Source: Sipunculus nudus (Eukaryota > Annelida > Sipuncula > Golfingiida > Sipunculidae). Taken from it: a stretch of 64,000 bases of DNA. The position numbers and the translations under genes are program-made. Numbering within the stretch: position 1 is the stretch's first letter; each line of letters begins with the position of its first letter. Under the pieces are notes generated by a model. That model ran no database searches and was not told where the DNA came from. It worked only from the letters and a program-made list of their open reading frames with translations. Positions 7,753-64,000 of this stretch are shown in pieces. The stretch is taken from NCBI GenBank assembly GCA_026874595.1, contig CM049309.1:70042926-70106925 (forward strand). The letters are read 5' to 3'.

Positions 7753-10700
7753 CTGAAATACAAATTTATAAATCATTAAAATCAAGAAATTATATAACCT
7801 GGTTATGGGGTTTCACCTTGTCAGCTAAAAACAGATCTGCTATTAATATCTGAGATGTTTAACAAAATAACAAATGACGTTATGATTTTATTCTGTATAA
7901 ATTCTCACACCTCGGTTTGATACTCCAATTAAGCAACGAGCAAATGATGCACTCTTGCAGTGCTATTGTTTAAGGATTCTTTCTAGTGCTACCAGATGAG
8001 GTCTCTATTGTCGTTTATTGGTATTAGGGGCTGCCTTTGTTTTGGCAAGCAGAACTGACCTGTGATGCAGTCATCAAGTTGGTGAACTGTGATACACCTT
8101 TCTCTCATCATGGATTAATATAAGTTTGATCAGGATCTTGGATTTATTTCTAAATGACCAAGAGTGTTGGCAGAGGTTTATTACAAGCAGTCTGACTGGT
8201 CTAAATGTCCTTTCTATTATTTATTCTTATCCTTGAAGACAAAGAACAAAAAGCTAACTAGACATTTCTTGGCACCGAGGGGGCCAGAGTATCCCCAGAC
8301 ATAGTACGCCCCCCCCTCCCTTTAAGAATAGGCCCCCATTTTTAGCAGCATATACTGACTCTTGGCAAGCTATTTTTGTTTCTTTCAACTATCAATCCAC
8401 AATCTTTCTGAAGATGTTGGTCCTGTGACCTTGACCTTTTGGCACTTCACAAGGCTATCCAAGATCTTCTGTCACCTTGATTTTGGGACCAATCCATGCA
8501 AACGATCTTGAGATATTTAAGAGTTTGTGTAATTTTCAGCAGAAATGGACCTATTCAAGGTCAAGGTCACTCTCTTAGCAAAGGTCATGACCCCATTATA
8601 AATAGGCTTTGTCCTTTTATCTATATCTATACATATTTAAAGTTTGATAAAGATCCGTGAAATTTCTTTTTGACAGATGGCTCCTGTGGCCTTGACCTTT
8701 GACCTTGTGACCCCAAAATTGATAGGGGTCTTCCTTTCTTGGCAGGTGAACTATATGTGCAAGATTAGTTCTAAGATGAAATGTTTGGCTGAAAATGCAT
8801 CCACAATCTTTTTAAAGATGTGTCCTGTGACCTTGACTTTGACCTCATGACCCCAAAATCAATTGGGGTCTTGCTTTTTCAATGGAACATATATAAGTCA
8901 AGTTTGAAATCTATACATCAATAAAAGCAGGAATTATCATCCAGAAACTATTTTTTTGACAGATGGCTCCTGTGGCCTTGACCTTTGACCTTGTGACCCT
9001 AAAATTGATATTGATCATCCACTTTTATATATAAATCAATAGAGGTCTAGATTTATTGATGGGCCATATATAAGTCAGGTTTGAAATTCATATATTAATC
9101 CAAGCTTGAATCATCATCTCGGGAACTAATTTTTGGACAGATGGCTCCTGTGACCTTCACCTTTGACCTTGTGACCTCACAATTGACAGGCCTCTTCCTC
9201 TATTGGCAGGGGAACTGTATGTGCAAGATGAAATGTCTGCGATGAAATGTTTGGTTGAAAATGCATCCACAGTCTTTTTAAAGATGTGTCCTGTGACCTT
9301 GACCTTTGACCTCATGACCCCAAAATCAATTTGGGTCTTGCTTTTCCAATGGGACATATACAAGTCAAGTTTAAAATCTATACATCAATAAAAGCAGGAA
9401 TTATCATCCAGAAACTAATTTTTGGACAGATGGCTCCTGTGACCTTCACCTTTGACATTGTGACCTCAAAAATTGATAGGGTTCTTCCTCTCTTGGCAGG
9501 TGAACTATATGTGCAAGATGAAAGATCTGAGATGAAATGATTGGCTGAAAATGCATCTGCATCATTTTAAAGATGTGTCCTGTGACCTTGACCTTTGACC
9601 TCATGACCCCAAAATCAATTTGGGTCTTGCTTTTCCAATAGGACATACACAAGTCAAGTTTGAAATCCATACATCAATAAAAGCAGGAATTATCATCCAG
9701 AAACTAATTTTTGGACAGATGGCTCCTGTGACCTTCACCTTTGACCTTGTGACCTCAAAATTGATAGGGGTCTTCCACTCTTGGCAGGTGAACTATATGT
9801 GCAAGAAAAAAGATCTGAGATGAATTGTTTGGCTTCAAATGCATCCACAATCTTTTTAAAGATGTGTCCTGTGACCTTGACCTTGACCTCATGACCCCAA
9901 AATCAATCAGGGTCTTGCTTTTCCAATGGGTCATATACAAGTCAAGTTTGAAATCCATACATCAATAAAAGCAGGAATTATCCAGAAACTAATTTTTGGA
10001 CTTATGGCTCCTGTGACCTTCACCTTTGACCTTGTGTCATCAAAATTGATAGGGATCTTCCTTTATTGGCAGATGAACTATATGTGCAAGATGAAAAGTC
10101 TGAGATGAAATGTTTGGCTGAAAATGCATCCACAATCTTTTTAAATATGTGTCCTGTGACCTTGACCTTTGACCTCATGACCCCAAAATCAATTGGAGTC
10201 TTGCTTTTTCAATGGGACTTATATAGTTTGAAATCAATACATTAATAAAAGCAGGAATTATCATCCAGAAACTAATTTTTTGACAGATAGCTCCTGTGGC
10301 CTTGACCTTTGACCTTGTGACCCCAAAATTGATATGGATCATCCACTATTGGCAAGTGAGCTATATATACAAGATGGAAGACCTGGGATGAATGTTTGGC
10401 TTAAAATGCATCCACAGTATCTTTTAAGATGCGAGTCCAGTGACCTTGACCTTTGACCTCATGACCCTAGAACCAATAGGGTTCTTACTTTAGTGGTGGG
10501 CCATACAAAAGTCACTTTTGAAATCCATATGGCTATCAACACTGGAGATATCATAAGAGGTGTGTGATTTTCACCAAATATAGACACATTAAAGGTCAAG
10601 GCCACTCATTGTAAACGTCATGACCCAAATGTAAATAGACCTCATCCCATAACCCATCTCTCTACATGTGCATAATATGAAAGAAATCTGTCCATTAGTT

Positions 10701-13700
10701 TTTGACTTATAATGCTTACAGTACTGTCAAGTGGCAATTATGGGGGTATTAAAAGGTGTAAAAACAAGAAAAGGATAATAGGTGGCGCCACCAATTTCTG
10801 GTATATCACAAGGCTATCCAAGATCTTCGGTCACCTTGATTTTTGGACCAGTCCATGCAAGCTTACTTGAGATATTTAAGAATTTGTGTTATTTTCAGCA
10901 GAAATGTACCTATTCAAAGTCAAGGTCACTCTCCTAGCATAGGTCATGACCCCATTTTAAATATGCTTCGTCCCCTTACCTATATCTATACAAATGTAAA
11001 GTTTGAAAAAGATCAGTGAAATATTTTTTGAGTTATCCCGCTCACAAGGTTTTTCTGCGGCGGTAGCGGCGGGACCCTCATGAAACTATAGTATCCCGAC
11101 TTTGTCTGGGGATACAATTATGACACTTTACCTATTGTCTAGTTATCAGAAGGCCAGTCGCTTTTCCTTAAAAAGGTTAAAAACTAGATATGACAAGTTT
11201 ATGAATTGCCCTTATTGTCTGTAACTTTACAAAGCAAGCAAAATAAGTACACACTGAAGGCTAACAGGTGTGTGAAGGGTGATGTATGATGCATGACCTT
11301 TCTGACCTTGGATTGCGTGTATATCTCCACCATCTCCTCATCATCTGTCTTCATGCAGCAGCTTTCATCATCAGTTTTAATATAGGAATCAGCCTCGTCT
11401 GTGTTCAGGAAGCTCTCATCATCAGTACGTACATATGACCCATCTCCTTCATCTGTAGACATGTACCTGTACACAACAGAAAACAAGTGATCCATGGACT
11501 TTCTTGACAAAGAGACATTTGGCTAGACAATGCAGGTAATGCCATTAATATTTTTGATCAAATACAAAAAAAAAATATGAAAACAAAATAAAATATATTA
11601 TAATTCTTTATCTTACAGCTTACTGAAATTCTTTCAGGTTTACCAACCAGTGTGTGGCCTAAAGGCCTTTGGGATTTATAGCCCTTGAGGGATGAAAACA
11701 TTTGTTTCCAGGCCTTAACTTAAATATAAGCTGTCTGTGTCAGTGTTATTATATATTTGTATGTTGCACACAGGGGTTTTTGTACTTCATTGGTCCCTGG
11801 TTTGAGAGAACCCTGGATAAAAACAACCACCTAATATTATAGTTTTACAGTTAAAATGTACCTTGATCAATTGGCCACTGCCACACGCGACCCCTTGCTA
11901 CCAAATTTTAATGGTCAAAATTCACCAATATTTTCATAACAAACTGACCACTACCCGGAAGCAGGGACCAGTGTATATTATACACAGAGCTGAGTCCATG
12001 ATGTACCTATATCTCATATAAATTTATTGTAAAGATTTTCAAGAGACAAAAAATGTAAAACCTCACCAAATGACCACCTCAGTTTAGTGAGCACCTCAAA
12101 ATTATGACAATTTTTTCACGGTCCCAGTTTCTTTTCTGGATCTTCATATCAGACCTTGCTTTGACTACCTCAAAAATGCTACCACTTTATCAAAGCCCTG
12201 TTGGTGGTCATAATTTCGAGGTTTCACTGTATAATAAGCACATTCCAGTACTGTTTTGTCAGTCATACTGTTTATCTTTAATGGTTCAAGAGTGAGGAAT
12301 CATCTGTGTATTACCCTCTACTAAAGCATTGTGTGTTTGTGCTTGTCTAAGTCTCACCTCTCTTGGTCTGTATCTGACGAGTAATGTCTGCCATTGAGCC
12401 GTGACTTGCGTGACCTTAGCTCTGCTATGAACCTGCTCTCCTCCTGTAGTCGTCTCTGGATCTCCTCCTGCCAGGCATTTAACTCTGCTGCATTCACATC
12501 ACTACCACCAGCTGCGAGATATTAACATGTTTAATGACAGTGCACTACCGACTGCTCCTTTTTAACTTGCCGGTTTACAAATACAAGCGAGTAAGACCTG
12601 TATGGGAAAACATTTTTACAAAGTGCCTCCACCTAAATTGTTCATGTGATCTTATGAAAAACAGGGATTCCTTACTTTAAAATAAGATTTTTATTTAATT
12701 TTGTTTAATCAATATTATTTATTTAAATATATGACTTTCTTGATAAAATGAACCTGATATTATACATGTATTTCAACCGTGAACTACACATACTTATGAT
12801 GATAGTAATAATAAATATATTAATAATAATAATAATTATTATTATTATAATAATAATGTTATAATTAACTTCTGGAAGCAAAGACTACATTTTGGTTTGT
12901 AATTGTGTGATTGAATTATAAACCAGGGCTAATAAATTTGCTTCATTCAAATACATCAGTGTATGTTAATATTCCTTTTTCATTTATCCATATTTTGTGG
13001 TATTTCTTCTCACCTCGTGCTTTTGGCATTTCTTCGTCCTCATCTTCACTGCCACTTGAAGCTATGTGTGGAAAAACAAAATCTGTATTAAAGTCACCAT
13101 CAATAAAGAACAAACATTAGTTGTAAACTCAGTCACTAGGTGGCAGTCCAACACCATATGCAAGAGCGTCTCATTTGTATCATATTTTGATGAGACTCGC
13201 CTTATATGCTTCAGTAGTGCGAGGTCTGGACCCACCCATTATCTGCTGTCTCAATCATTTCAAAGGGTTTCAAACCAATTTTGTAGGCAATGGCCCTCCC
13301 CTTTTTCCCAAACTGAGGTCTCCTTTAAATGTTTTCTCATCATTTTTCCTGGCTTGGGCCCTCTTTTCCAACATCCTCGACCCGCCCTTGTGATCTGCTC
13401 ATACATCAGAACTGTATCATTGTTCTTGGTTTATATGTTTACCTTCTTGTTACTTCTGTATGTTAATTTAAATTTAATTAATCCAATTCCAGCACAGATA
13501 ATCAATAACTGCAGAGATGTTTTCTTCTACTGATTCAGACAATAAAAGATAAAAGTTATTTTTAAATATGGATCTCTCTAACTCATACTTGAGACTGGTG
13601 GTGCCATCTACAATGAGTTTTGTGTGAGGTATATCCCTGTTTTTGCCATCTGTTCATCTTTGTGCTGAGTTCAATGCATTGGCCTGAAACTGTGAATGTC

Positions 13701-16700
13701 CATTGATCAAAGGGTTTCAAATGCCCTTTTCATCCATCTCGTACTCAAGAGTGATGTCACCATATGCAAATTATTTCTTGTGGCACCATCCGTTCATTTC
13801 CTTTGGGTGAAAATTGCTCATGTCTCAATAGTGGTTCAATTCATTGGTCTGAAATTTAACATATTTATCCATCGTGGAGAATAATCCCATAGTCCAGACA
13901 GGTGACACCAGCTACCTTACCATTTGTAGAATTAATTAATGCCCTTTTCTCAGGAGTAGTTTCGGTATTGGCCTGAAATTTTGCAAGTCCATAGATCTTG
14001 GATACCTCCACCTCAAACTCAAGACTGGTGGCACCATCTGTAATTGTTTTTGTGTCATGTCCATCTGTGAGTCTGCTTTGGGTGAAAATTGCTTACATGT
14101 CAGGATAGTTTCAATGTATTGGTCCGAAATTTAGCATGTGCAGCCGATCTTGGATAGTATTATTGTATACCAGACAGGTGGCACCAACTGCCTCCTGTTT
14201 TCATAGAATACATTGATTCATTTTTTTTCAGGAACGGTTTGCAGTATTGGGCTGAAATGATGCGATTAAGTCCTTAGATCTTGGATACCTCCATCTCAAA
14301 CTCAAGACTGGTGGCACCATCTGTAATTGTGCTTGTGTGGTTTCCATCTGTGCGTCTGCTTTGAGTGAAAATTGCAATATGTCAGGAGTGGTTCAATGTA
14401 TTGGTCTGAAATTTGGTATGTGTATCCATCTTGGAGAGTAATGTTGTAAACCAGACAGGTAACACCAACTGCCTTCTGTTTTCATAGAATACATTAATGC
14501 CATTTTCTCAGGAGTGGTTTGCTGTATTGGGCTGAAATTTTGGGTGTCAATAGATCTTGGATACCTAAATCTCATATTAAAGACTAGTGGCACTATCTGC
14601 AACCGTTCTTGTGTGGCATCTATCCGTGTGTTTGCTTTGGGTGAAAACTGCTCATATCTCAGGAGTGGTTTGCTGTATTTGGCTGGAATTGAGGATGTCC
14701 ATAAATCTTGGATTCCTCCATCTCATACTAAAGACTGGTGGCACTATCTGCAAATGATCTTGTGTGGCATCCATTGGAACATTTGCTTTGGGTAAAAATT
14801 GCTCATATCTCAGGAGTGGTTCAATAAATTGGTCTGAAATTTGGCATGTCCACTGATTATTGGGAAGGTTTCCTTGTTGACCAGACAGGTGGTGCCACCT
14901 ACATTTCCCATTTCTGTAGATTACATTGATGCCCTTTCCTCAGGAATAGTTTGCAATATTGGCCTGAAATTGTGTATGTCCATAGATATTGGATACCTCC
15001 ATCTTGTAATTAAGACTGGTGTTGCCATCTGCAACTGTTTTCATGTGGTGTTCTTCTCTCTGTTTGCTTTGAAAAAAAACTCATATCTCAAGAGTGGAAA
15101 TATGTATTAGCCTGAAATTGTGCATGTTTATCCCTCTTTAGTAGCTTTGTTGTAGACCAGACAGGTAGTATCTAGTGGCGCCACCTGCTGTTCCATTTTT
15201 ACAGAATACATTGATGCACTTTTTCTAAGTAGTGGATTGGTGTCTCTGCCTGAAATTTTGCATGGTATCCATCTGTAGATCTGTTTCTGTAGAAAATTGC
15301 ATTTATATGAGGAATTTAATTGGCATCACTGATGCCACAAATCTGGAGTCATGTCATGTCAGGAACATTCAATGCCTTACTTTACCCATGCCTCTGTGAC
15401 CTGGCAGATACACAGTCACTTGTCGACTACCTGTATCCTAATTTATTTTAATATTGACTTGTGTCTAAACTGATTTTTATGGCTAATATGTGTTTCACTC
15501 CTAAAATAAGTACAAAATATTAACATGGAATTTTCCAGAATTCATCAGGGAAAATCAGAGAATTTTGTCCTCATGTAATACTGAGATTGTTAAATAACAC
15601 TGCTGTATATCCATTTATACATGAGAGGCCATCCACACAGACAAATCATGCTGACAGGTCTAGTTCATGATGGAATACATACAACCTAATAAACTATATG
15701 GGAATTCATGTCACAGGGCTGATATCAGATCAGTATAAATGCATGATGAAGTATAATGGCATTCTAGCATGCTTACATGTTATGTATAGTGTCCAAAGAG
15801 TGTATATTTTTTTTTTATAATTCTAATCTTTCTATGGCCTGTTGGAATACTGCATATTTTACATGTCTATGTTATGTAGTAAAAAGATGACCTTAGTTCA
15901 AAAGCTGGCTGATCATCTATAAGGAAGAATTAATATACAAAAGTATATATACTAGCTTAAAACTGAACTTTCTGGCATGGGTTTTAAAATACTCATTTTT
16001 AGCTCAGCTGACTATAAGTCATCTGAGCTATAGCGATGTCCCTTTGTCCATCGTCCGTATGGCATACGATATAACGTTGTATATTATACAACAGCTCATC
16101 TCCACATTCTTCCTTTTTCTATATTTTACACGGTTTCATATATTCCCAGTGATAATTTTAAACACATATTACTTTCACATAGTTGAAATATTAAAATTTT
16201 ACAAATATTTGATCATGAGAGACTTCTGCATCTTTGATGTAGTTCATAAAAGTACACATGCAGTATTTCTTGTGCATTCATATATTTATTATTTGATTAT
16301 CATCAAATAGCAGGATCCTTTCCTCTTTGCTTTTCAAATGTTAATATTTAGAAAATATACAATAGTTGTATATATGTATTATATATATATCAGACACTTA
16401 ATCATAAGTATCATGCAAATTCCATGGACAAAGAGAAAAAACACTACTTTTTCTTATTTTCCAGGCCATGAACACAGGAAGAACTAAGAGTCTTTTAGAA
16501 AAAATGCAATAAGAAACAATGTGATAAACTGACAGCTGAAATTGTCAGAAAATAATTAGTGATCTTGCAAATGATGTATAAAACAGCAGCTACTGAATTA
16601 AAAAGCTAAGATATTGTTTCAACTTTTATACTGAAACAACAAATCCAATGATTATATAGTCATTATATATCAAAAGCTCACCTGAATTAAGTTCTTTAAC

Positions 16701-36000: not shown

Positions 36001-39000
36001 GATTTTTACATGAATTTGGAAACTACATGAAACAGCCCTGCTAGAAACAATATCTGAAACGAAGAGTATAAAGCATTTTTTTGGTACTGATCTTTGTACA
36101 GGGAGCTGGAAGTCACAAAACTGAGTAAAGCAGATTTTTTACAAATGCTCACAGCAGTTCTGTCTTTGGAGTTTTAACACAAAAGATGAGACCATTCCCC
36201 GGCCTGGCATATTTGACTTCTATGCAGGGCTACCCCAGTACTGGTTTATTACCTGGCAGGCTGTACCTTCAGGAATACTTTAACTGACAGTCTATGTGAC
36301 AAGTATGTCACAGCCTCCTTGGGAGCAACTGGTGTCAATGCTAGGGTTGGCTGGCCCAGGTGACAGGTTGCATGAGACATGAGAGACCTGGGACTCACTG
36401 GTAACAACACTCTACACCTTGTATCCAAAGGGAATGTACTTAACTGAGGAATAACAGCAGCACATAACCAGGACACCCAGCACACAAGTGACCCATGGAT
36501 CATAGACACTCTGCTTACCAGTTGGGTTTGTAAGGGAAAGTGCTATTTTTGCAACCAAGGTTGTATATGGGTTTATCAGCTGGGCCAGGTGGTGGAATAA
36601 AGATACGAATGTTATAAACTAGAAACTTAAAAATACCTATCAAAGAGTTTGTACTTGACAGCACATTTAACAAATTTCATCTGATCCATGAGTCTTATTA
36701 ACATCCCTTTGGATACAAACTTATAAAGAGACATGCAGCCTAGCAAAAGTGTCATTTTGCTCCTCAGATATAAGAGTCTATGGAAGGGATTCCAACATTC
36801 AGAACTGCACGGTAAATATTGATGGGGATTCAAATATTTATGTCATTGTTTAAAATACCTCACAGCCAACAATTACACTGTCATTTAAGACAGACCACAA
36901 CAAAACTATTAGGAATATTTCCATGTAGAAAAAGATTATGTTTTAGCTTAGCATACAGTTAAATCTCCCTGCAAGTTAGTTTAATTTCTAACAGCATGCA
37001 AGCATATCTCTAACATGGTTTATGTAATTGATAGACAAGTCATGTGAGAGATAAGAAATTATGATAGTTATCACAGAGATGGGAGTCACATTTTGGTTTG
37101 TACATGTTTTCATGTGTATTCTGTTTTGTTAATTCCTCATTTGCAAACTAATATTAAGATTAATGGCTGCTTCCAACTTAATCTTAACATTAGTTTGCAA
37201 ATGAGGGATTAACAAAACAGAATACATGTGAAAACATGTACCAGGGCTGCTTCCAATTTTACAGTAATGAGGATGAAATATGATATGGATGCACATTGCA
37301 ATGCAGTTCTCTGTATGACTTGTGTTTGTTTGAAATGATTTATTGACACAATACATAGTAAGTACATTCATGTGGTATCCTACCTAAGCACATAGGCCTA
37401 TATAAATATAAACATGTATCAATAGATTGAGCGCAAGCTACTTAAAGCTTATGAATTCTAAAGTGATAATTTTCTGATGCATGGCAGGAGGGGTGTGATG
37501 TTAATACGTTAAAACATCAATATGATTATTGAGTTTTCAATAACGTTTGCTACCGATTCGAATATTTCCTTGTTTGATTTGTCATCTATTTTTGGGTCTC
37601 AATAGTGTAGAACTATTAATGGGGTATCACTAGGTAAGTATGTTTTCCTAGTGGATTTATAGAGGTGGCATTGCAGTAGGTAGTGGTTGGGATCTTCTGA
37701 TGGGCAGCCACATTGACATTTTTTGGTGTTGCTAATATGTCTTGTGTACATGTGATAAATTATATCACAATATTACATTCTCATGCGTGCATGGATTATT
37801 TGTGATTTTCTGGTTCCTGAGTTGTAGTACCTAGGTGTTTTAGTTCTCAGAGCTGTTTTTTTTCAATTAGTAGTTTAATTAAGCACTTGTTAAGCAAGCT
37901 TTCATATCAAGATCCATTTGGTTCCATAATCTGATTGATTTTGGGAGAAAAGAGTTGAAATATAAATCAGTTCTTGCTTGTATTGGAGTTAGGTTGTGTA
38001 TTACAAATCTGGTTTCATATGTTACTATGTGGAGGTGGAAGAAGAATGTGTAGATACTGTGGACTTTCATTGTTATCATTTTATGTACAAGGAGGATTTG
38101 TTTGTTTTCTCTTCTCTTTTGGAGTTTTCCATCCTGATTCAAGATATAAGAGTTCATGTGATGTTCCTTTTACCCCTCCCGTTACTATTCTTGCAGCCGT
38201 CAGTTGTATTTTTTCAAGTGTCTGGTCTTGTTCCTGGTTACAGTTGCTCCATAAAATGTTTCCATATTCTAAGAGAGGACTGATATATGAAAAATATATA
38301 TTTTGTAAGGTTGTTCTATCTAGGAGATATTTTAACTTGCTTAAGATTAGAAGTTTGTTCATTGCTTTTGCTGCAATGTAGTTTATGTGTTCTTGCCACT
38401 TGCAATTATGGCTAAGGATGATTCCTAGATGCTTGTACATTTTGAGTCTAGTTATTTTTGTTTTATTTAGGTATAAGTCAGGGAGGTTTACAGGTGCTGT
38501 TTTCCTTGAAAAGAGTACCGATTCAGTTTTTCCTGCATTGAAAGTGACTAGCCACTTCCTTGACCATTGGTAAATCTTTTCAAGGTCAGCATTCAGTATC
38601 TGGGCTGCTCTGATGGGATCTTCTATGGCTTGGTATAACATTAGATCATCCGCAAAGAGATGAATATTACTTGTGAGTTTTTCTCCTATGTCGTTGATAA
38701 AGACTAAGAAGAGTAGGGGTCCTAGGATCGATCCTAGTGGTACCCCTGCCTGTAGGAATTTCCAATCCGACTTGTGTTATGACTCACAGCAGATTATCAA
38801 TCATATACAAATAACTACCAAGTGGGGTTTTCACTGTTTCATTAATTGCTACAAAGATCTAGATTTCATTTATTTGTATATTCCAATTAATTTTCATTTA
38901 CAGATGTAGAATGACTTCAAACCATGTGCTCTCCTTCTGCGGTAACACTATGGTCTTTTGTGGGATTTAACTGTGCTTGCAGCTTACAAATAAGAAATGG

Positions 39001-43318: not shown

Positions 43319-46300
43319 TTAATAACAAAAATATGTATGTAGAAGGTGTAAGGTGTTTCTGACAAGTTACATCAAATAACCAACTGACAAATTATTCAAG
43401 AGATTTTCTTATTAAAATATTCAAACTACAGACAGACAGGTTTACCTATTTCACCCATTAAATATCTCATACTTCTGTTTCATTAAAGTCATTGACTGAA
43501 CATAAAACGACAAAAATAGGGTCACAGGCAACTGCGTGTAATGTGGATTGAATGAGAGCTAATGGGAAGACAATCCTTTAATAATGGATGATGCCCTCTG
43601 TACTTTCTGTATATGATTGAATTATTCAAGCATCTGGAGGTCTCTGGAAATGGTATCAATTGTCCATTTGCCAAGACTGTACTTCAATACCAGACCTTTA
43701 ACTTAATTCAAGACCAAAGAATATAATCAGGACTATGGCTGGACAGGTAGCAAATATGTAAGTGCTCAGCGGCTGTTACCTGATGTGATCTGTTTAACAT
43801 ATAATTATAATAGATAATTTAAAATGACAAGGACATCAAGAGATGACATTTGAGACCTTTAATTCTAATACATATATATATATGTGACACAAATGAATAA
43901 CAAGCACATGCATGGACATACAACATCTCTGGCTGAAGGAAATAACATGACTGGATTACATTTATAAAACGTGTAAGTACCGTAGTCTTCAATTATAGAG
44001 AAACAGATAACTATCTAATAAGGCAATGAAAACAGCTATATTATAATTGTCTTTATCTTTAAGTCTTAATAATGGAAGTCCTCATTTTTTAGTCTAAATA
44101 TTAGTGAAAATGACTCAGATTCAAGCACTTTTTTCAGCACCCTCAATGACTCAAATAAAATCCTGCAGGACCTGATAGTGGAGTAGAGCAGGTAACTAGC
44201 AGCAATTTATTAGCTGCAAATTTCCCCTGTGGGGCTTGATTTTACAATCAATTTATCATGATTTTGCCAGTTACATCTGTTTTCCTCTTTTCAAATCAAC
44301 ACCGAGACGATCTGTTGATTATGGATCACTCAGAACAGGTCGATCTTGTGACTCTTTTAAGATCACATAAGTGAATATGAAGTGGCACCTTAAAGAAAAG
44401 ACAGCTTACAAACACCAACAATGTTCACATGTTGGGGAAAACCTAGGCCAGTACACTGCTGAGGCCAATAGCATGTCTTCAAAGGATTTCCAGCAAGCTA
44501 GCCCGCGATTGATGACTCCGTACACGCTGATACACTCTCAAAGAATCAGGCGTTTCAAAGAGTGGCCAGGTCGGAGAGATATAAATGGCACTGGGTTATC
44601 GCTGTTGGAGTATCAAGACTGCATCCACTGCAGACATTTCTTCATACTGATATATTTTACTTATCGCAGCTTCAATAAAAGGCCATCAGTTTATATAAAA
44701 TTGGATTCCTGGGGATTTTACATTAAGTCTAACAATCTCTTCCCCTGGCTGCTTATTCCCTCCAGGGCTACTCTATGGTACCACCGAGGTGCTTATCCTC
44801 CGCCATGTTACTTTATAACAAAGTGCTGTTTCTTCTACTTTTCTGCTTCTGGCACTTTATACAGTCATTCATCTAAAAGGCCATACAGTTGCTACAAAAT
44901 GACAAGGCTGTGTTTTGCCAAAGTAATGAATACTCTAGAGGGGCTTGGGATGTTCTCCTCTGAAATTGTTTTCTAGCACTTGTCAGGATTTTCATTTCAG
45001 TTTTTCCAGTACTCAAATTAGAGAAGTAAAGAAATATTGTATCATGTTCTATCATTCATGGGGTATACTGCCAATGTAAGGGAAACATATGAGCCATACA
45101 TGATGAATGATTTCAGAATCTACCTGTGGGCAGCAATGCTGTATCCAGTTGTCAACTGCTCGATAACTATCTAGTACAATCTGTAAAATGCAGTTTCAAC
45201 TATATAAGTATGGCAACTTCCTCATAAAGAAATTTCAAACAAGCCAAGAAGCTATTCATAATTCATAACAGAATACGCTTCCTCGCAAAGTTTTACTGGA
45301 TGTCATTAGAAACCTATTGAGATACCCATATATAATCTGTTCCACCCAAGGGTTCCCATTGAAATTTTTTAGTATTTATAAACTGGCTGATCAGTGACAA
45401 AAGTAAGCTACCATGAAGTGATGAGGTACAGGCCTAATTAACTGTGAGTTCAAAACTATACTTTGCAAAATATTTTAGATATTAAATAAAATACAGTAAA
45501 ATCTTGCCTGATGTCCACCCTGCTATGACAACAACCCCTGCTAAGACCATCACATTTTTAGGTTTTATGCTTATCTGACTTACATGACCACCCCTCTAAC
45601 AAAACCACTTTGGCTGATCAAACATATTTCACTGTATCTAAGAAAGCTGTATATTCAATCCCTCTAATAATGGTCCTATTCATTGGTGAAATGCCAAAAG
45701 GAACCATTCAAAAGCTGTTGGTTGGTCGTTTAGTGTCATAACTATTCCACAGAATAAGTGCCATATTGTGTGATCATATTTAAGTTTGATTTAAGTTTGA
45801 GAAATAATTGCAAAATTTCAATAATCACCCACAGGAGGAACATAATACAGTTCTTAAGCTGCAGCCTGAAATAGAGGAAATACAGTATCTCATGTGCTCA
45901 AACAATTAACAGTATAGATTAATTCTGCTGGCCAGTTCACTGGCTCATCTGTTCAGCAAACAGTGTAACTGTCCTGCCTTTACTGACACATCTGTTAAGT
46001 AGATGGCATGACTGTCCTATATTTGTGTGAATGCTACACACAAGTAGTTGTCTGGTATTGGGACCATAATGCAATAAGTCCTAAATACTTCCTGGCATAA
46101 CATCATAACAACTTCCTGAATGCCATGATACAGTTAGGGTTTCAAGAGAGCTCCCTATGTAGTCAGCTTTGAAATAAAAGTGACCCACGGGTCATGAGGC
46201 TCAGCAGATCTAGCTTTGTTAATAAGTCAGAAGTGTTTGAGCTTCCACCTTGTTAGCTGCCACAGCTAGTCAGGTAAAAATCACATATGTCCAATATTTG

Positions 46301-55279: not shown

Positions 55280-55290
55280 GTTTACACATG
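55280..55290. repeat. Left target-site duplication of the L1 element
   Basis: GTTTACACATG, identical to 63827-63837 right after the A-tail. Confidence 0.9.
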
Positions 55291-55693
55291 ACCTTGCCTG
55301 GTGGTCACTGAATGGGGAGGACGTGTTTTGTTTTGGCTGCAGACCTTGCTTTAATTTTCAACCTAAAGGGATATTTCTGGCTCACAAATTTCATCCAGAA
55401 GGGGTTGGTAGGTGATGTTGCTTCTTTAAACCCCTCTGGTAAAAATTCTGATTAGATAAATTTAATTTTAAGTGAAAATATAATAATTCAATAGCCTGAA
55501 CAAAAGGCTTTCAAAATTTTGGTGAAACCCACACCTGCAGGGTGCAAGTGTACTACACCAGGCAAGAGCAAGTTTGTGTCAATGTTCAGTGGGCCTTGTG
55601 AAATGATGCGGAACATGTAAACTTTGTACTGTGGCTGGCCAAAACTTGAAATATATAGATATGTTATTATGAAAAAGGTCACAGTCTGTTTCA

Positions 55694-56475
55694 CCACGGG
55701 ATTACAAAAAAGCAAAAGGATTTTTAGAGGGGCTATCAGAAGAAGGGGATAGTGAAAGTGAAAATAAAACTACAGAGATGGCTGGTATAACAGAGGAAAC
55801 ACTCAAAAAACTACTTTCAGAGCAAAAGGAGGACTTAATTAAATAATTTGATGAACGGTTGAGAAAATGTGTTGCAGGCTTGACTCAGAGGGTAGAAATT
55901 CTTGAAAATAAGAATGAACAATTAATAGCTGAAGTGAAATCCCTGATCAAAAAATAATGGTTGCAGAAGAAACTGCTAAACAGGCTGAACTTAAGGTAAC
56001 TGAATCCTTGAGGAGAGCTGTGGATAATGAACAATATAGCCGGCGTTCAAACCTCAAGGTTTATGGTATCCCTTAAGGGGGACAAAATGAAAACTGCAAA
56101 AAAGCTGTCCTTGATATGATTAGACATATATTAAAAACTGCAATTAAGGACAGAGACATTGATATTGTACATCGTGTGGGAAAATATATGAAAACTGGAA
56201 CAAAGGAGCCAAGGCCAATAGTAGTCAGATTTGTGCGTAGGGAGGATAAATTGGCTGTCATGAGGGAAAGACGGGCCCTGAAAGGGACCAAAATGCTTAT
56301 TGTGGATGATTTGTGCTATGCTTGCTTGGAGTATTTCATAGGGTCAAATCAGACCCAAGAGTGGAGAGAGCATGGACATGGGACTCGAATATTTTTGTTC
56401 TTAATAAGAATAACCAGCGTCAATACAAAGTTGGGTAAGGTGATGTCCTTGATGATGTTTTTAAGGAATAAATAA
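55694..56475 (+). pseudogene. L1 ORF1 remnant (RNA-binding protein)
   Basis: A likely start is ATG at 55778. It reads AGITEETLKKLLSEQKEDL, a TAA, then a coiled-coil segment (GLTQRVEILENKNEQLIAEV). After a frame change come VDNEQYSRRSNLKVYGIP, a stop, and an intact stretch from 56098 with DIDIVHRVGK and RPIVVRFVRREDKLAVMR, ending LKGTKMLIVDDL. The E-Q-Y-S-R-R-[SN]-N and H-R-V-G...R-P-I-V-V-R-F wording is typical of ORF1 proteins, which coat the element RNA and act as nucleic-acid chaperones. The C-terminal piece (SNIFVLNKNNQR) lies in yet another frame. At least two stops and two frameshifts make it non-functional. Confidence 0.85.
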
Positions 56476-56730
56476 AGCAAGAATGTAATCTGTATAACAG
56501 CGTTTGGTAACTAATGATGACTGTGAAATTCTGTTTTGAGTTTTGGTCAGCATACATAATATATCACATGTTGACTCATTGGTTCACACACACACACATT
56601 GTTACAGTTATGTCATTCTTGTATGATGTTCTGTTTTTCTTGGTCATAAATGTACACATTATTTAATGCTACTTCAAACGACCAGAATATTAAAGGAAAG
56701 CCAACATGTGATTATTGTATATGGAAATAG

Positions 56731-57720
56731 ATGATCTATAAAATTTTTCTGTACACTTTAAATGTTTTAGGTATTCAGGACTATTATAAGAGAAGAAAAA
56801 TGTGTTTATCAAATTTGTTATCAAAACAGGGTATGGCCAGGGGAATCTCCATGATACAGGAAACCCACTCAGTCGAAAAAAATGAAAATGTTTGGAAGAA
56901 TCAGTGGCGAGGTAAGAGTTATATTGCCCATTGTTCATCTAAAAGTGCAGGAGTAAGTATATTAGTTGGAAGAGACCTTGATTTTGAAGAGATTAGTAAA
57001 TATATAGACCCAAAAGGGAGGGTTATAATTATACATTGTTTAATCCAAGGAAGCCAATTTCTTATTGTTAATTCCTTCGCTCCCAACACAGAGCCAGAGC
57101 AAGTACAGTTTTACTGTGATCTTTTACAGAACAAAAATAAATTTAACATAAAAACTGATATAAGGTTGATCTGGGGAGAAGACTTTAACTTCCACTTTAG
57201 TGAAATAGATGGGGATGGTGGTAATGTACATAACTTTAAAATAAAGTCAATTCGTGCAGTTCTTGCAATGATGGACCAACTCAATGTATGTGATATATGG
57301 CGAGTTAGGAATAAAAACTTGAAAAGATTTACATGGCGATCTTCGCGTCCACTTATACAAAGGCGTTTAGATTATTTCTTAACATCTTCTAATCTCCAGT
57401 CAGTTGTAAAAGATTGCGATATAATACCGGCAGTAGCTACCGACCACTCTGCTATAATTCTTATTATTTACTCCTACCCTGTGCAGAAACATGGTCCCTC
57501 ATTTTGGAAGTTGAACTCTTCACTTCTCAAAGATGAAAGTTATGTAAAAAATATTAGGGACAATTTAATACACTGAAAGCAAAATTATGAAAACAATAGT
57601 AATGCACAGATGCTATGGGAATATTTAAAATTTAAAATAAGAGAATTTACTATAAACTATAGTAAGAAAAAAGCTGTCCAGTCTAGGAAATGACTTAAAC
57701 AACTGGAGGAAAATGTAACA
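56731..57720 (+). pseudogene. L1 ORF2, endonuclease part
   Basis: From ATG 56731 the frame is open to a TGA at 57574-57576 (281 residues). Endonuclease motifs are in order: TLNVLG (usual N), MIQETHS (catalytic E), GVSILV, VNSFAPN, GEDFNF (usual G-D-F-N), RRLDYFL and TDHSAI (catalytic D-H). The frame resumes after the stop with WEYLKFKIREFTINYSKKKA and runs to 57720, with one more TGA, where the nested element breaks it. The protein would nick target DNA to prime reverse transcription. Confidence 0.92.
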
Positions 57721-58217
57721 AGTGACCCATGGGTCATGACGCTCAGCTGACTGGGAAGAGATTCGCAAAAGGAAATTTTTTCATCTGAATGGTAGTATAT
57801 ACCCATTCAACTGAAGCATCAAACAGATTAACCAACAGGGCAAAATTGTGTCTGTATTTTTAAAGGTCTCAAAAATAGAGAAAAAAATTAGTAAAAAATA
57901 AAAAAATACAGGTGGCGCCACCAGTCTGCAGGAACTGATGGAACATCTCATGATCAATATCCATGCAAAAAATCATGACCATCAGTAATGTAGTTAATGA
58001 GATATTGAAGTTTTTGTATGAAATTTTTTACTTTTCTGGGGGGTACTTTGGGGCCCCATAGCTCGAAGGATATGGGTAACAGAGACCTAATTTCTGGTTT
58101 CCAAGGAGATTTTTCATGGACCTCTCAGAATGCCAAGTTACAAGGTTCTAGGTCCAGTGGTTACGATTTGTGCCTGGTTAACAGATGGACAGACAGACGA
58201 CGGACAAAGAGTGATCA

Positions 58218-58252
58218 CTATAGCTCAGATGACTTTCAGTCAGCTGAGCTAA
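58218..58252 (+). repeat. Internal hairpin terminus of the AGCTCAG family
   Basis: CACTATAGCTCAGATGACT, then TTCAGTCAGCTGAGCTAA: long inverted arms with a 3-base loop and a CTAA end. It is preceded by 'gacagacagacgacggacaaagagtgat'. The outer end at 60912 has the same last 20 bases. Confidence 0.8.
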
Positions 58253-58392
58253 AAATTGAAAAAAATACAGATGGCGCCACCAGACTGCAGAAACTGATGA
58301 AACACCCCATGATCAATATCAATGCTAAGAATCATGGTGATCAATGCATTAGTTGTTCAGATACTTGAGCTTTTGTATCAAATTTTCCATTA

Positions 58393-59736
58393 TTGTATCC
58401 GCCAAAACAGAGTTTTGCGGATACTATGTTTTCAGCTGCACGCCGCCGCCGCCGCCGCCACCGCCGCCGCGTAGGTTTCCGGAGAACTCCTCCGTAACCG
58501 CTGGGCGGAATTTTACGAAACCCGGGATTATGTTCGGGTCACATGTGAACTGCTGCGCCCCGATTTTGTTTTGACCTCTGACCTTTCCTCTGCACTCTGC
58601 GTCTGTTTGTGCGTCTGTTTCCACACATAAACCCACATATCTGGGGAACCGTTTGACGGATCAGGAAAATTTTTTTGCACAAATGTAGCTCTTGGAGAGC
58701 TTTATAACATACACAAAAAATGGTGGCGCCACCTGCAACCATGTTTGCACAGTGTCCATCTGTTTGTCTGCCTTGGGTTAAAATCACTCATATCTCTGCA
58801 GTGACTTGACTAATTCACCTGAAATCTGGCATGCGTATACATCCTGGATAGCTTTTCTGATTTTGTGACAGGTGGCGCCACCTACATTCACTTTTACGCT
58901 GCAGACATCCAAGCTCATATCTCGGGAACCGTTTGACCGATCAGGAAAATTTTGTTGCACAAATGTAGCCCTTGGAGAGCTTTATAACATACACAAAAAT
59001 GGTGGCGCCACCTGCAACCATGTTTGCACAGTGTCCATCTGTTCGTCTGCCTTGGGTTAAAATCACTCATATCTCTGCAGTGACTTGACTAATTCACCTG
59101 AAATTTGGCATGCGTATACATCCTGGATAGCTTTTCTGATTTTGTGACAGGTGGCGCCACCTACATTCACGTTTACGCTGCAGACATCCAAGCTCAAATC
59201 TCAGGAACCGTTTGACCGATCAGGAAAATTTGTTTGCACAAATGTAGCCCTTGGAGAGCTTTATAACACACGCAAAACTGGTGGCGCCACCTACAGCCAT
59301 TTTTGCATAGCTCCTGTCTAGTTTATGCAGCAGACATCCAAGCTCATATCTTGGGAACCGTTTGACCGATTGGGCCAAAGTTTTGCATGTGTATAGTTCT
59401 CACATAGCTCTTTATCATACGCAAAACTGGTGGTGCCACCTTCAACCATTTTTGCACAGCGTCCATCTGTTTGTCTGCCATGGGCTAAAATCACTCATAA
59501 ACATGTAGTGGTTTGACTTATCTGCCTTAAATTTTGCATATGTATACAACTGGGATGGCTTTCTGGATTTTGTGGTGGGGGGGCAACCTTCATACACAAT
59601 TTGGCTGCAGACATCCATGCTAATATGCAACACTTCACTCTATTTCCCCTTGCCACTTAATCCATGCCTCACTTCACCCGTTCCACTCTGATTTAGGCGG
59701 ATACATGTAGTCGCTTGTCGACTACCCGTATTCTAG
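58393..59736 (+). mobile_element. Helitron-like element nested inside the 57721-60912 repeat element
   Basis: It starts TTGTATCCGCC, forms a GTATCCGC/GCGGATAC hairpin, and has a (CCG)n-like patch at 58441-58471. Three to four ~280-bp units follow, with 'ggaaccgtttgac.gatcagg' near 58645, 58925, 59203 and 59347 and GGTGGCGCCACCT palindromes. The 3' end has a GTAGTCG/CGACTAC hairpin (59708-59726), then CCGTATTCTAG. Taking it out joins ...ccatta to ttctg.ggtactt, exactly the sequence found uninterrupted near 60356 and 60697. So it went into an A^T site without duplication and ends in CTAG, as Helitrons do. It has no coding capacity. Confidence 0.82.
58441..58471. repeat. (CCG)n tract near the element's 5' end
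   Basis: CGCCGCCGCCGCCGCCACCG-type run. The corresponding place in the 8258-11117 element (- strand) has a shorter CCGCCGCTACCGCCGC patch. Confidence 0.95.
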
Positions 59737-60912
59737 TTCTGAGGTACTTTTGAGCCCAATAGCTCGAAGAATATGGGTAACAGAGACCTAATTTGAGGTT
59801 TCCAAGGAAACTTTTTATGGGCTTCTCTGCATGTCAAGACAGAAGATTCTAGGTCTAGGCATTACGATTTGTGCCCTGTAAAATTCGTAAAAATCGAAAA
59901 AATACCAGTGGCGCCATCAGACTGCAGAAACTGATGAAACATTCCAAGATCAATATCCGTGCAAAGAATTATGGTGATCATTGCAATAGTTTTTCAGATA
60001 CTTGAGCTTTTGTATCAAATTTTCCATCATTCCGGGGGGTACTTTGGAGCCCCATAGCTCGAAGAAAATGGGTAACAGAGACCTTTTCTAAGTTTCAAAG
60101 GAGACTTTTAATGGGCCTCCCTGCATGTCAAGAGAGAAGATTCTAGGTCCAGGCGTTACGATTTGTGCCCTGTTAACAGATGACCCCATCTTAAGGTCTC
60201 ATAAATAGAGAAAATAATTCGTAAAAATTGAAAAAATACAGGTGGCGCCACCAGACTGCAGAAACTGATGAAACATCCCATGGTCAATATCCATACAAAG
60301 AATCATGGTGATCAATGCAATAGTTGTTCAGATATTTGAGCTTTTGTATCAAATTTTCCATTATTCTGGGGGGTACTTCTGAGCCCCATAGCTCAGAGGT
60401 TATGGGTAACAAAGACCTAGTTTCAGGTTTCCAAGGAGACTTTTCATGGGCCTCCCTGCATGTCAAGAGAGACGATTCTAGGTCCAGTCATTAGGATTTG
60501 TGCCCTGTTAACCAATGACCGCATCTTTTAATGTCTCAAAAATAGAGAAAAAAACACGTAAAAATCGAAAAATACAGGTGGCACCACGAGTCTGCAGAAA
60601 CTGATGAAACACCCCATGATCAAAATCAATGCAAAGAATCATGGTGATCAATGCAATAGTTGATCAGTTACTTGAACTTTTGTATCAAATTTTCCATTAT
60701 TCTGGGGGGTACTTTGGAGCCCCATAGCTCAGAGGTTATGGGTAACAGAGACCTAATTTCAGGTTTCCAAGGAGACTTTTTATGGGCCTCCCTGCATGTC
60801 AAGAGAGAAGATTCTAGGTCCAGTCGTTACGATTTGTGCCCTGTTAACAGATGACTGCATCTCCAGAGGTCTCAAAAATAGAGAAAAAAATTCTTTCAGT
60901 CAGCTGAGCTAA

Positions 60913-62670
60913 TAAAAATTAGAAGATAACTCTCAAACTACAGAAAATAACCAGTCCAATTACATTGAAGCTTAAGCCGGGCTTGAAGAATATTATGATA
61001 AATTAACCAAGGGGATTATTGTGCGATCACGGGTACAATGGATAGAAGAAGGGGAAAAGTCTACACATTATTTTCTTAATTTAGAAAAGAGAAATAAAAA
61101 TAAATCTGTAATAAGAAAACTGTTACTTGATAATAAAGAAGTGACTACTAATTCAGAAATTTTGAAGGTTTTAAGACAGTTTTACTCTGAAAAATATACA
61201 AGGAAATCATACATAAATGAATATGAATGCTTAACTTTTTTAAGAGATATAGACTTGCCTAAACTTAAAGAGTCAGATGCAGAAAAATGTGATGGTATTA
61301 TTAGAAAAGGGGAAATTCATAAAGCACTTCTTGAGATGAAAAATAATAAAGTCCCTGGAAATGACGAGTTAACAAAAGAATTTTACCTGAGCTTTTTTCC
61401 AGAGATTGGCGATCTTTTATTACATAGTATAAATAAAGCTTATGAGACTGGTGAATTGAGTTTAAGTCAGCGTCAAGCAGTTATAATCTTTATAGAGAAA
61501 AAGGGGAAAGATAATAGATTAATAAAAGCTTGGTGGCCTATAAGTTTGCTGAATGTGGATACTAAGATTATTAGCAAAGTATTAGTCAAAAGATTTATTA
61601 ATTTGTTACCTGGTATTATTCACACGGTTCAAAGTGCTTTTGTCAAAAACAGATTTATTGGCGAACCTGTTCGGTTATTATCAGATATTTTATATTATGC
61701 AAACAAAGACAATATGGGTGGGCTTCTAGTAGGAGCAGACTTTAAATCTGCTTTTGATAATTTAGATCATAATTTTATGTTTTCGGTATTGGAAAAATAC
61801 GGTTTTGGAGAGTCCTTCCGTCGATGGATTAAACTTTTGCATAACCATGTTCAAAGTACGGCGTTAAATAATGGATTTAGTTCAGAATATTTTACTCTTA
61901 GTAGGGGTACCCGTCAGGGTGACCCTTTAGCACCATATTTATTTGAACTCTCACTGGAAGTATTAAGGGAAATGATAAGGAAGAATGAAAGGGTAAAAGG
62001 AATAAAGTTAAATAACTTAGAAGTAAAGATGTGTATGTACGCTGATGATACAACCTTGTTTTTAAAAGACCTTGATTCTTTACATAATGTTCTCGCTATA
62101 TTTGATGTATATTCGACATATTCTTCATTGAAAATAAATCTGGGTAAGTCTGAAATTGCATGGATGGGAAAATGGAAAAATAAAGCTGATAATCCATTCC
62201 AACTTAAATTAGTAAATTTAAAACAGGACGCCATGAAAATACTTGGTATATATTATCCATATAACCAGAAAATAGTGGACGAGCTTAATTTTAACAGATG
62301 CCTTGAAAATTTGAAGAAGGTATTAAATATATGGAAGGGTAGATCACTCACCGTTTACAGACACATAGAGGTATCAAGATCACTAGCTGTTTCTAAAGAA
62401 CTATATGTAATGAATATGCTTGAACCTAAAAGATTTTGTAATGAAGTACAAGATACTATAAATAAATTTGTTTGGAAAAATAGTAGGGCTAAGGTAAAAT
62501 TTAGCACAGCAATTGGGTCATATACTTTGGGCGGATTAAAGCTACCAAATATTGATATACGACATAAAACACAAAGAATAATTTGGGTAGCTAATCTTAT
62601 CACGAAATTTAAAGGAACAGCTAGAACCCGACTTGATATGAAGTGTAAAGCTATCGGGGGTATAGACTGA
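60913..62670 (+). pseudogene. L1 ORF2, reverse transcriptase part
   Basis: It continues the frame of the endonuclease part. After stops at 60913 and 60973 it is open for more than 560 codons to TGA 62668-62670. RT motifs in order: SRVQWIEEGEKSTHYFLNLE, MKNNKVPGNDELTKEFY, KKGKDNRLIKAWWPISLLN, SAFVKNRFI, GADFKSAFDNLDH (first catalytic Asp), RGTRQGDPLAPYLFELSLEV, CMYADDTTLF (catalytic Asp pair), SLKINLGKSEIAW and ILGIYY. The usual N-W-R-P-I-S is A-W-W-P-I-S here. The core is otherwise well kept, so the copy decayed rather recently. Confidence 0.94.
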
Positions 62671-62693
62671 ATACACCAGAACTATGATATTAA

Positions 62694-63670
62694 ATGTTTC
62701 CAAAGTCCTGTGCTCCATTTTATTTAGCATGTTTTAGAGAATGGTGTAACTATGCTAACAATCCACCAACAACTTTAGCAGAGATAACAAGTCAATTCTT
62801 ATGGAATAACAAATATATATTGGTTAATAATCAATCAGTATTTTATCGCAGTCTCTTTGACATGAATGTAAAATATTTAAGGGATATAATTGATGAAAAT
62901 GGTAATTTCAAAGCATTTATGGACCTCGATTTTGACAAAAGAAGTGCATCGTTAGAACTGACTATGTTTTCATTGAATAGCCTTATATGTGCTATACCAA
63001 GTGATTGGAAGAAAAAACTCCAAGTTGATGTTAAGATTATGAATGGCAATAAAGAAGAAAATTTGTTAAAATTAGATAGTAGAACAGTGTATCAAAAGCT
63101 GGTAAGCTATTTGTTTAAAGAACCTGCATGTGTGAATAGACTACGGGATAACGGTCTGGAGCATTGGCAACAAGCATATGAAGGAATCTATAGGTGCACT
63201 AATGAAACATACCTTCATGAGTTTCAGTTTAAAATTATAAATCATTATCTACCCGTCCACAAGAATCTTTATTGATGGAACTTGATAGACTCTCCAAGGT
63301 GTAATTACTGTTTTGTCTATAATGAATCAATTGCTCATTAATTTTTTACTGTAATACAGCAAGGAACCTCTATATACAAATGAGAGAATGGTTGAAAGCA
63401 GTAAATCTTATTTTGCCAGACTATAATCTATGTAATATTTTAAATGGTTGTTTTCCTGTGACCTTGGATAATGTGTTGATAAATACTGCGATTCTTGTTT
63501 ATAAATATGTACTATATAGTAAAAGATGTGAAAAACATGGAAATTTATTTCAGATAGTTAAAAGTAAATTAAAAGACATGCAAAATACTGAATATCTCAT
63601 AGCATGTAAAAATAATAAATTAAACCTTCACCTTAAAAAATGGTCACCATTTAGGCAGCTCTTGAGCTAA
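62694..63670 (+). pseudogene. L1 ORF2, C-terminal part, frameshifted
   Basis: After the stop at 62670 the protein goes on in a second frame (62694-63275; WCNYANNPPTT, FLWNNKYILVN, VYQKLVSYLFKEPA, YLHEFQFKIINHYLPVHKNL). It passes a TGA into SPRCNYCFVYNESIAH, then changes frame to NTARNLYIQMREWLKAV (63380-63670). The C-x2-C-x7-H arrangement is the usual cysteine-rich end of L1/Tx1-type ORF2. The stop-frameshift-stop series excludes function. Confidence 0.88.
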
Positions 63671-63826
63671 TGTGTATTTATGTAATTACGTTTCCCTTCA
63701 TGTAAGATGTATTGAATGTCAGGTTTGTATGCATGTCCTTGTCATTACATGTATCTATGTTACATGTGTGTAAACAACATCTGTATGTGGTGCAATAAAA
63801 TGTATAAAAAAAAAAAGAAAAAAAAA
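63671..63826 (+). other. L1 3' UTR and A-rich tail
   Basis: About 120 bases of 3' UTR, an AATAAA at 63794-63799, then an A-run broken by a single G (63806-63826). The right target-site duplication follows directly. Confidence 0.88.
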
Positions 63827-64000
63827 GTTTACACATGCTCATAGACATTTCTGAGGCCTGAAATGTGGTTAAAATGATCATAATCCATTATATCAAGGCA
63901 AACAAGCAAATTCATGGAATTTATGTCCCTCGCTTCTGCCTCTTGTTGTCTTTCATGCTTGCCTTATCAATGTGTTTTAGTTTTTATGTTGGCCTAAAGA
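63827..64000. other. Flank right of the L1 element
   Basis: It starts with the right copy of GTTTACACATG (63827-63837). The rest is AT-rich with no gene seen, presumably still the upstream dystrobrevin intron. Confidence 0.6.

Follow-up and report, generated by a model that had tools for sequence, protein, structure and literature searches.

A HINE and a second HINE-type element nested within an L1 retrotransposon of Sipunculus nudus

Three transposable elements lie one inside another near the right-hand end of a 64,000-nucleotide stretch of the Sipunculus nudus genome (GCA_026874595.1, contig CM049309.1, positions 70,042,926 to 70,106,925 of the forward strand; hereafter the window), which raises the question of what these elements are and in which order they arrived. 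The outermost layer is an L1 retrotransposon, split by an outer HINE insert that is in turn split by an inner insert of HINE type. The genome searched comprises 1.43 Gb in 153 contigs, and empty sites were found for all three layers, which confirms the three-level nesting proposed in a preliminary description made from the sequence alone. Such transposon nests are common in animal genomes. The present one is real but ordinary, both inserts fitting a type of element known before from oysters and fruit flies. It is highly probable that the L1 was inserted before the outer HINE, which came via a Helentron, and that the inner HINE-type insertion was the last. The L1 would have been copied in by target-primed reverse transcription, leaving an 11-bp duplication. 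The Rep/helicase/endonuclease protein of a Helentron would then have brought a HINE into an A/T run of the L1 ORF2 on the opposite strand, and a second HINE-type family would subsequently have entered a T-rich site in one outer unit. Rolling-circle transfer as the mechanism, as well as the protein moving the inner family, is what we infer from these sequences.

The host L1 consists of the following parts:

55280-55290, no strand: left 11-bp target-site duplication, GTTTACACATG (from the sequence and the L1-free relatives L047 and L048)
55291-57718, plus strand: left part of the L1 with the 5' region, a broken ORF1 and the endonuclease part of ORF2
60911-63826, plus strand: right part of the L1 with the reverse transcriptase, the 3' region and an A-rich tail
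63827-63837, no strand: right 11-bp target-site duplication, GTTTACACATG (from the same evidence)

The presence of GTTTACACATG at both 55280-55290 and 63827-63837 agrees with the 11-bp target duplication reported earlier. The 5' start falls at 55293-55294 in 9 of the 12 other copies matched at the 5' end. The target without L1 is represented by two relatives, L047 (84% identical) and L048 (78%), which span the site with one diverged word, their alignments extending just 17 and 10 bases beyond the L1 junction. The reverse transcriptase is nearest to the LINE-1 ORF2 protein (1.7e-58 with 9k6g versus 2.1e-16 with R2), and an Exo_endo_phos match in the left part reaches 23.3 bits, slightly below the cut-off of 24.5. 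The copy is like LINE-1 in this reverse transcriptase, in its target duplication and in its A-rich tail, but differs in being broken by stops and inserts; it is dead. At C12:8632806-8637109 (G000) two L1 copies were found in opposite orientation about 3.8 kb apart.

The outer element interrupts ORF2 of the L1 and has the following features:

57719-60910, minus strand: outer element, a HINE (non-autonomous Helentron) in its long form, 3192 bp including the inner element
57719-57753, minus strand: 3' terminus with a palindrome (57723-57736) and the 3' subterminal repeat (57741-57753)
58222-58250, minus strand: internal 5' module with the subterminal repeat (58237-58249) and its complement (58222-58234), the end of the 532-bp short form
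59886-60890, minus strand: central tandem repeat, 336 bp x 3.0
60897-60910, minus strand: outermost 5' end with the subterminal repeat (60897-60909)

Comparison with other L1 copies, a check suggested in the preliminary description, yielded the empty outer site: the insert is absent from all 14 copies fetched, which are 14 of the 15 best matches to the left flank (C8:74740804 was left out), 24 weaker matches lying beyond. Copies L003-L014 align across the site as one main piece, and L015 and L016 align in pieces because of small local deletions. When the left L1-outer junction served as query, 625 candidates came up, and none of the 40 scored joins the two elements at a second place. In L003-L012 the target consists of ~6 to 10 consecutive A. 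For this reason the exact base and any 2-bp change at the outer site are undecidable, contrary to the earlier claim of a site resolved to the base. AA (TT on the element strand) adjoins the outer 3' terminus in 35 of the 39 outer copies, and at the L1 site a 2-bp change is hidden by the A-run. The length of 3192 bp given before was retained and the ends were shifted 2 bp to the left, from 57721-60912 to 57719-60910, as fixed by the start word in 39/39 copies and by the 3' ends of Helentrons. The argument that ORF2 stays in register on removal of the insert is correct arithmetically (3192 = 3 x 1064). It weighs little, since the L1 ORF2 frame has stops on both sides of the insert (57574, 57691, 60973 and 62668) and a TAA at the junction as placed in the preliminary description.

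All 39 fetched outer copies have the 3' terminus in common. A subterminal inverted repeat of 13 bp stands 1 nt inside the 5' terminus and 22 nt inside the 3' terminus, and the 14-bp palindrome is located 4 nt from the 3' end. The complementary repeat at the outermost 5' end is missing in the window copy and present in other outer copies. No ORF of at least 150 aa occurs in the outer or the inner insert. Both had been termed tandem-repeat elements of no named class; the tandem cores are indeed present, but a class can be given, as both inserts have HINE anatomy, which would also explain the lack of ordinary target duplications.

According to PMC7492417, Cg_HINE of the Pacific oyster has subterminal, complementary and satellite-like central repeats, a microsatellite, a palindrome and a TT target. 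The HINE plan is also given in PMC4067079 (subterminal repeats, 3' palindrome, TT preference and a variable terminal T). The feature set of Cg_HINE is found here as well, the likeness being one of described structure; the TT target and the absence of an ordinary target duplication are seen in the inner element, whereas at the outer site the A-run would hide a 2-bp change. Relative to Cg_HINE, the outer family differs by the second, internal 5' module and by a Helentron gene that shares its 3' terminus. HINE-Mo and DINE-1, as described in PMC4067079, resemble the present elements in their subterminal repeats, their 3' palindrome, their preference for TT, the variable T at the terminus and the Helentron partner motif. 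The distance from the 3' subterminal repeat to the 3' end is 22 nt in the outer and 32 nt in the inner element, versus ~38-60 nt in the mite families described there. At least two HINE-type families carry satellite-like tandem repeats in this genome, one of them with Helentron genes bearing its 3' terminus.

These genes were found through the Helitron Rep domain, for which 143 genome matches were listed, some being two pieces of one gene; 18 loci were sampled. The outer 3' terminus is situated downstream of Rep at 8 of these 18 loci (9 hits), on the strand of the gene in 8/8. There are 9 hits in the 117,218 bases of the 18 Rep loci versus 1 in 92,658 bases of control loci (an outer-type terminus in L023), the counts of the fuzzy matcher being lower bounds in both. 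The terminus follows the start of the Rep match by ~4.5-5.3 kb at 7 loci and by ~8.2 kb at L056, and three loci (L052, L063 and L066) that are ~98% identical diverge directly after it. The ORF of L057/L052 is 2342 aa long. In the L052 protein (1866 aa scanned) Helitron_like_N and PIF1 score above the cut-off, and an endonuclease match has 20.6 bits, below the Pfam cut-off of 24.5. The Helentron motif (V/I)ExQxRG-S-PHxH, with S between G and P, is present in 8/8 proteins read, and three of these (L052, L054 and L056) are encoded at loci bearing the outer terminus. Such a gene can be regarded as the Helentron partner of the outer element, the 3' terminus being common to both; the 5' end of the partner is tentative and comes from one imperfect match. 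L065 counts among the 8 loci through a separate outer-type terminus beyond the gene's altered own: in this locus (340-580) the gene's 3' terminus is unlike that of its relative L054, and the outer-type terminus, ~145 bp further on, may be due to insertion or to read-through. In L112, the upstream piece of L065, the 5' end is not reached. In the window itself, a diverged outer-type Helentron 3' end (28/35 bases) is located at 46177-46211 on the minus strand.

The inner element is built as follows:

58393-59736, plus strand: inner element of a second HINE-type family, 1344 bp, with termini common to 12/12 copies
58395-58424, plus strand: 5' subterminal repeat and complementary repeat (hairpin)
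58441-58470, plus strand: CGC microsatellite adjoining the 5' module
58636-59307, plus strand: central tandem repeat, 279 bp x 2.4
59696-59736, plus strand: 3' subterminal repeat (59696-59704), palindrome (59707-59725) and CTAG end (59733-59736)

The 12 inner copies fetched, of 39 listed, vary in length from 921 to 1764 bp. That the insert at 58393-59736 breaks a repeat unit of the outer element was borne out by other copies: of 7 other long outer copies (9 were fetched at >3 kb, 2 of which are short forms), 6 have the corresponding unit intact, and the seventh, L022, has no such unit. The left flank of L022 has an outer copy within an outer-type unit (89% over 153 bp). The earlier statement that the inner site bears no target duplication needs a qualification, as a single TT is present in the empty unit whereas the filled site is flanked by TT left and right. 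TT stands at both ends in 12/12 copies, preceded by A in 11 and by T in 1; this is the known HINE T ambiguity, as set out in PMC4067079.

The inner element can be called HINE-type only; it may instead be a Helitron or an intermediate. Its CTAG end and its position between A and T fit a canonical Helitron, which ends in CTRR and lies between A and T, but it starts with TTGTATCC and not with the TC of canonical Helitrons. That a canonical Helitron, or an intermediate of the type described in PMC4067079, mobilised it rather than a Helentron is a reading with evidence on both sides. The 3' CTAG, with A before the element in 11/12 copies and TT after it in 12/12, argues for it, as does the fact that no Rep or Helentron gene with the inner termini was found at the 18 sampled loci of the 143 listed Rep matches. 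We nevertheless consider it unlikely, because the start is not TC and because the 5' subterminal and complementary repeats, the microsatellite, the 3' repeat and the palindrome occur as in Cg_HINE (PMC7492417). The L049/L051 group was tried as the inner partner and rejected, as the ends differ.

Placing the inner insertion last also has to be weighed against the possibility that the outer element reached the L1 already holding the inner one, the inner insertion having happened elsewhere. The same base of an outer-type unit is occupied by the inner family at C8 (L113) and C17 (L115, right junction only), which favours such a pre-loaded arrival; at C14 (L114) an inner-family element is 3 bp off that site in an outer-type unit. 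Compared with five empty copies, however, the outer flanks in the window agree in 128-130/130 and 143-145/148 positions with four and in 125/130 and 123/148 with the fifth, L017, as against 117/130 and 120/148 for the filled locus at C8. Because the flanks are nearer to the empty copies, the insertions in the window, C8, C17 and C14 were read as separate ones. In addition, a query with the left junction gave 872 candidates, and the 40 that were scored contain no second close composite; arrival of the two elements together is very improbable. Still harder to believe is local growth of satellite arrays, or an artefact of assembly, as the origin of the inserts: tandem cores in both would suit this, but each recurs at scattered places with constant ends, and at the empty sites the flanks meet neatly. 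Insertion of the inner element into an outer HINE already present in the L1 is thus preferred. Targeting of the inner family to a hot spot is unproven. If TWATT is the target, a motif with no further occurrence in the one 336-bp unit examined, 0.9 to 8.6 hits are expected at the site by chance; if any ATT suffices, the expectation is 0.17 to 1.65 and the probability of three or more is 0.0008 to 0.23. The copy numbers behind these values are first-look candidate counts (3049 and 5170) and assumed larger values, and the queries, being aimed at this junction, could not show insertions elsewhere in the unit.

The order L1, outer, inner is upheld by the nesting itself. The comparison of ages by divergence proposed in the preliminary description was run on all three layers and cannot order them, so that dating in this way was rejected. 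Changes seen in no other copy number 13/1571 in the L1 (7 copies), 4/532 in the outer (39 copies) and 3/425 in the inner element (12 copies), and differences from simple majority sequences number 32/1571, 8/532 and 5/425, respectively; L071 was excluded from these sets and L074 kept despite poor alignment (46% different). In C4:91133474-91134300 (L081, L036) the reverse nest was found, a short outer copy within an inner-type core at 91133474-91134180, with flanks 90-96% identical to the inner element. As the two families nest both ways, their activity periods overlapped.

As can be seen from the coordinates above, the outer element of the window encloses a complete 532-bp short form. Among the 39 outer copies, 11 stop at the internal 5' module (515-540 bp), 24 continue beyond it and 4 are unclassed; these copies are the best matches to the window, and the proportions of short and long forms are not genome-wide ones. 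All 24 longer copies pass through a nearly identical junction at the internal 5' module. It is possible, though we hold it with less than even confidence, that the outer family has one 3' terminator and two usable 5' ends and spreads either as the 532-bp form or as the longer element enclosing it. If so, the family would naturally document the choice that a Helentron makes among 5' ends preceding one common 3' end or, alternatively, rolling-circle runs past a terminator that give head-to-tail copies. Within the 3.8 kb retrieved for one copy, L020, four 5' modules accompany a single 3' terminus. PMC7492417 describes Helitrons in head-to-tail arrangement in which the internal copies have no 3' end, and taken with them the modules of L020 suggest that rolling-circle runs may be recorded here. 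The paired short and long outer forms could help to test the choice of 5' end by Helentrons.

The two families also have a short sequence in common. The 12-bp palindrome GGTGGCGCCACC, which recurs in both family cores, is found at 57911, 58722, 58871, 59001, 59150, 59280 and 60241, as well as at 10781; other matches between the families are short (12-22 bp) and mostly on GGTGGCGCCACC. The 9 outer loci (32 kb) contain it 23 times and the 12 inner loci (25 kb) 56 times; in 165 kb of Rep-gene loci it occurs 3 times and in 19 kb of L1 loci 0 times.

Several other features of the window were observed. A tandem array at 13801-15440 is followed, within 15995-16055, by a match to the inner 3' end (77%) and a match to the outer 5' module (88.5%); these are perhaps older HINE relics. 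Satellite-like tandem arrays are present at 957-2044 (units of ~180 bp) and 9059-10529 (units of ~289 bp). The ORF at 38081-38641 on the minus strand resembles, by eye, a fragment of another LINE reverse transcriptase.
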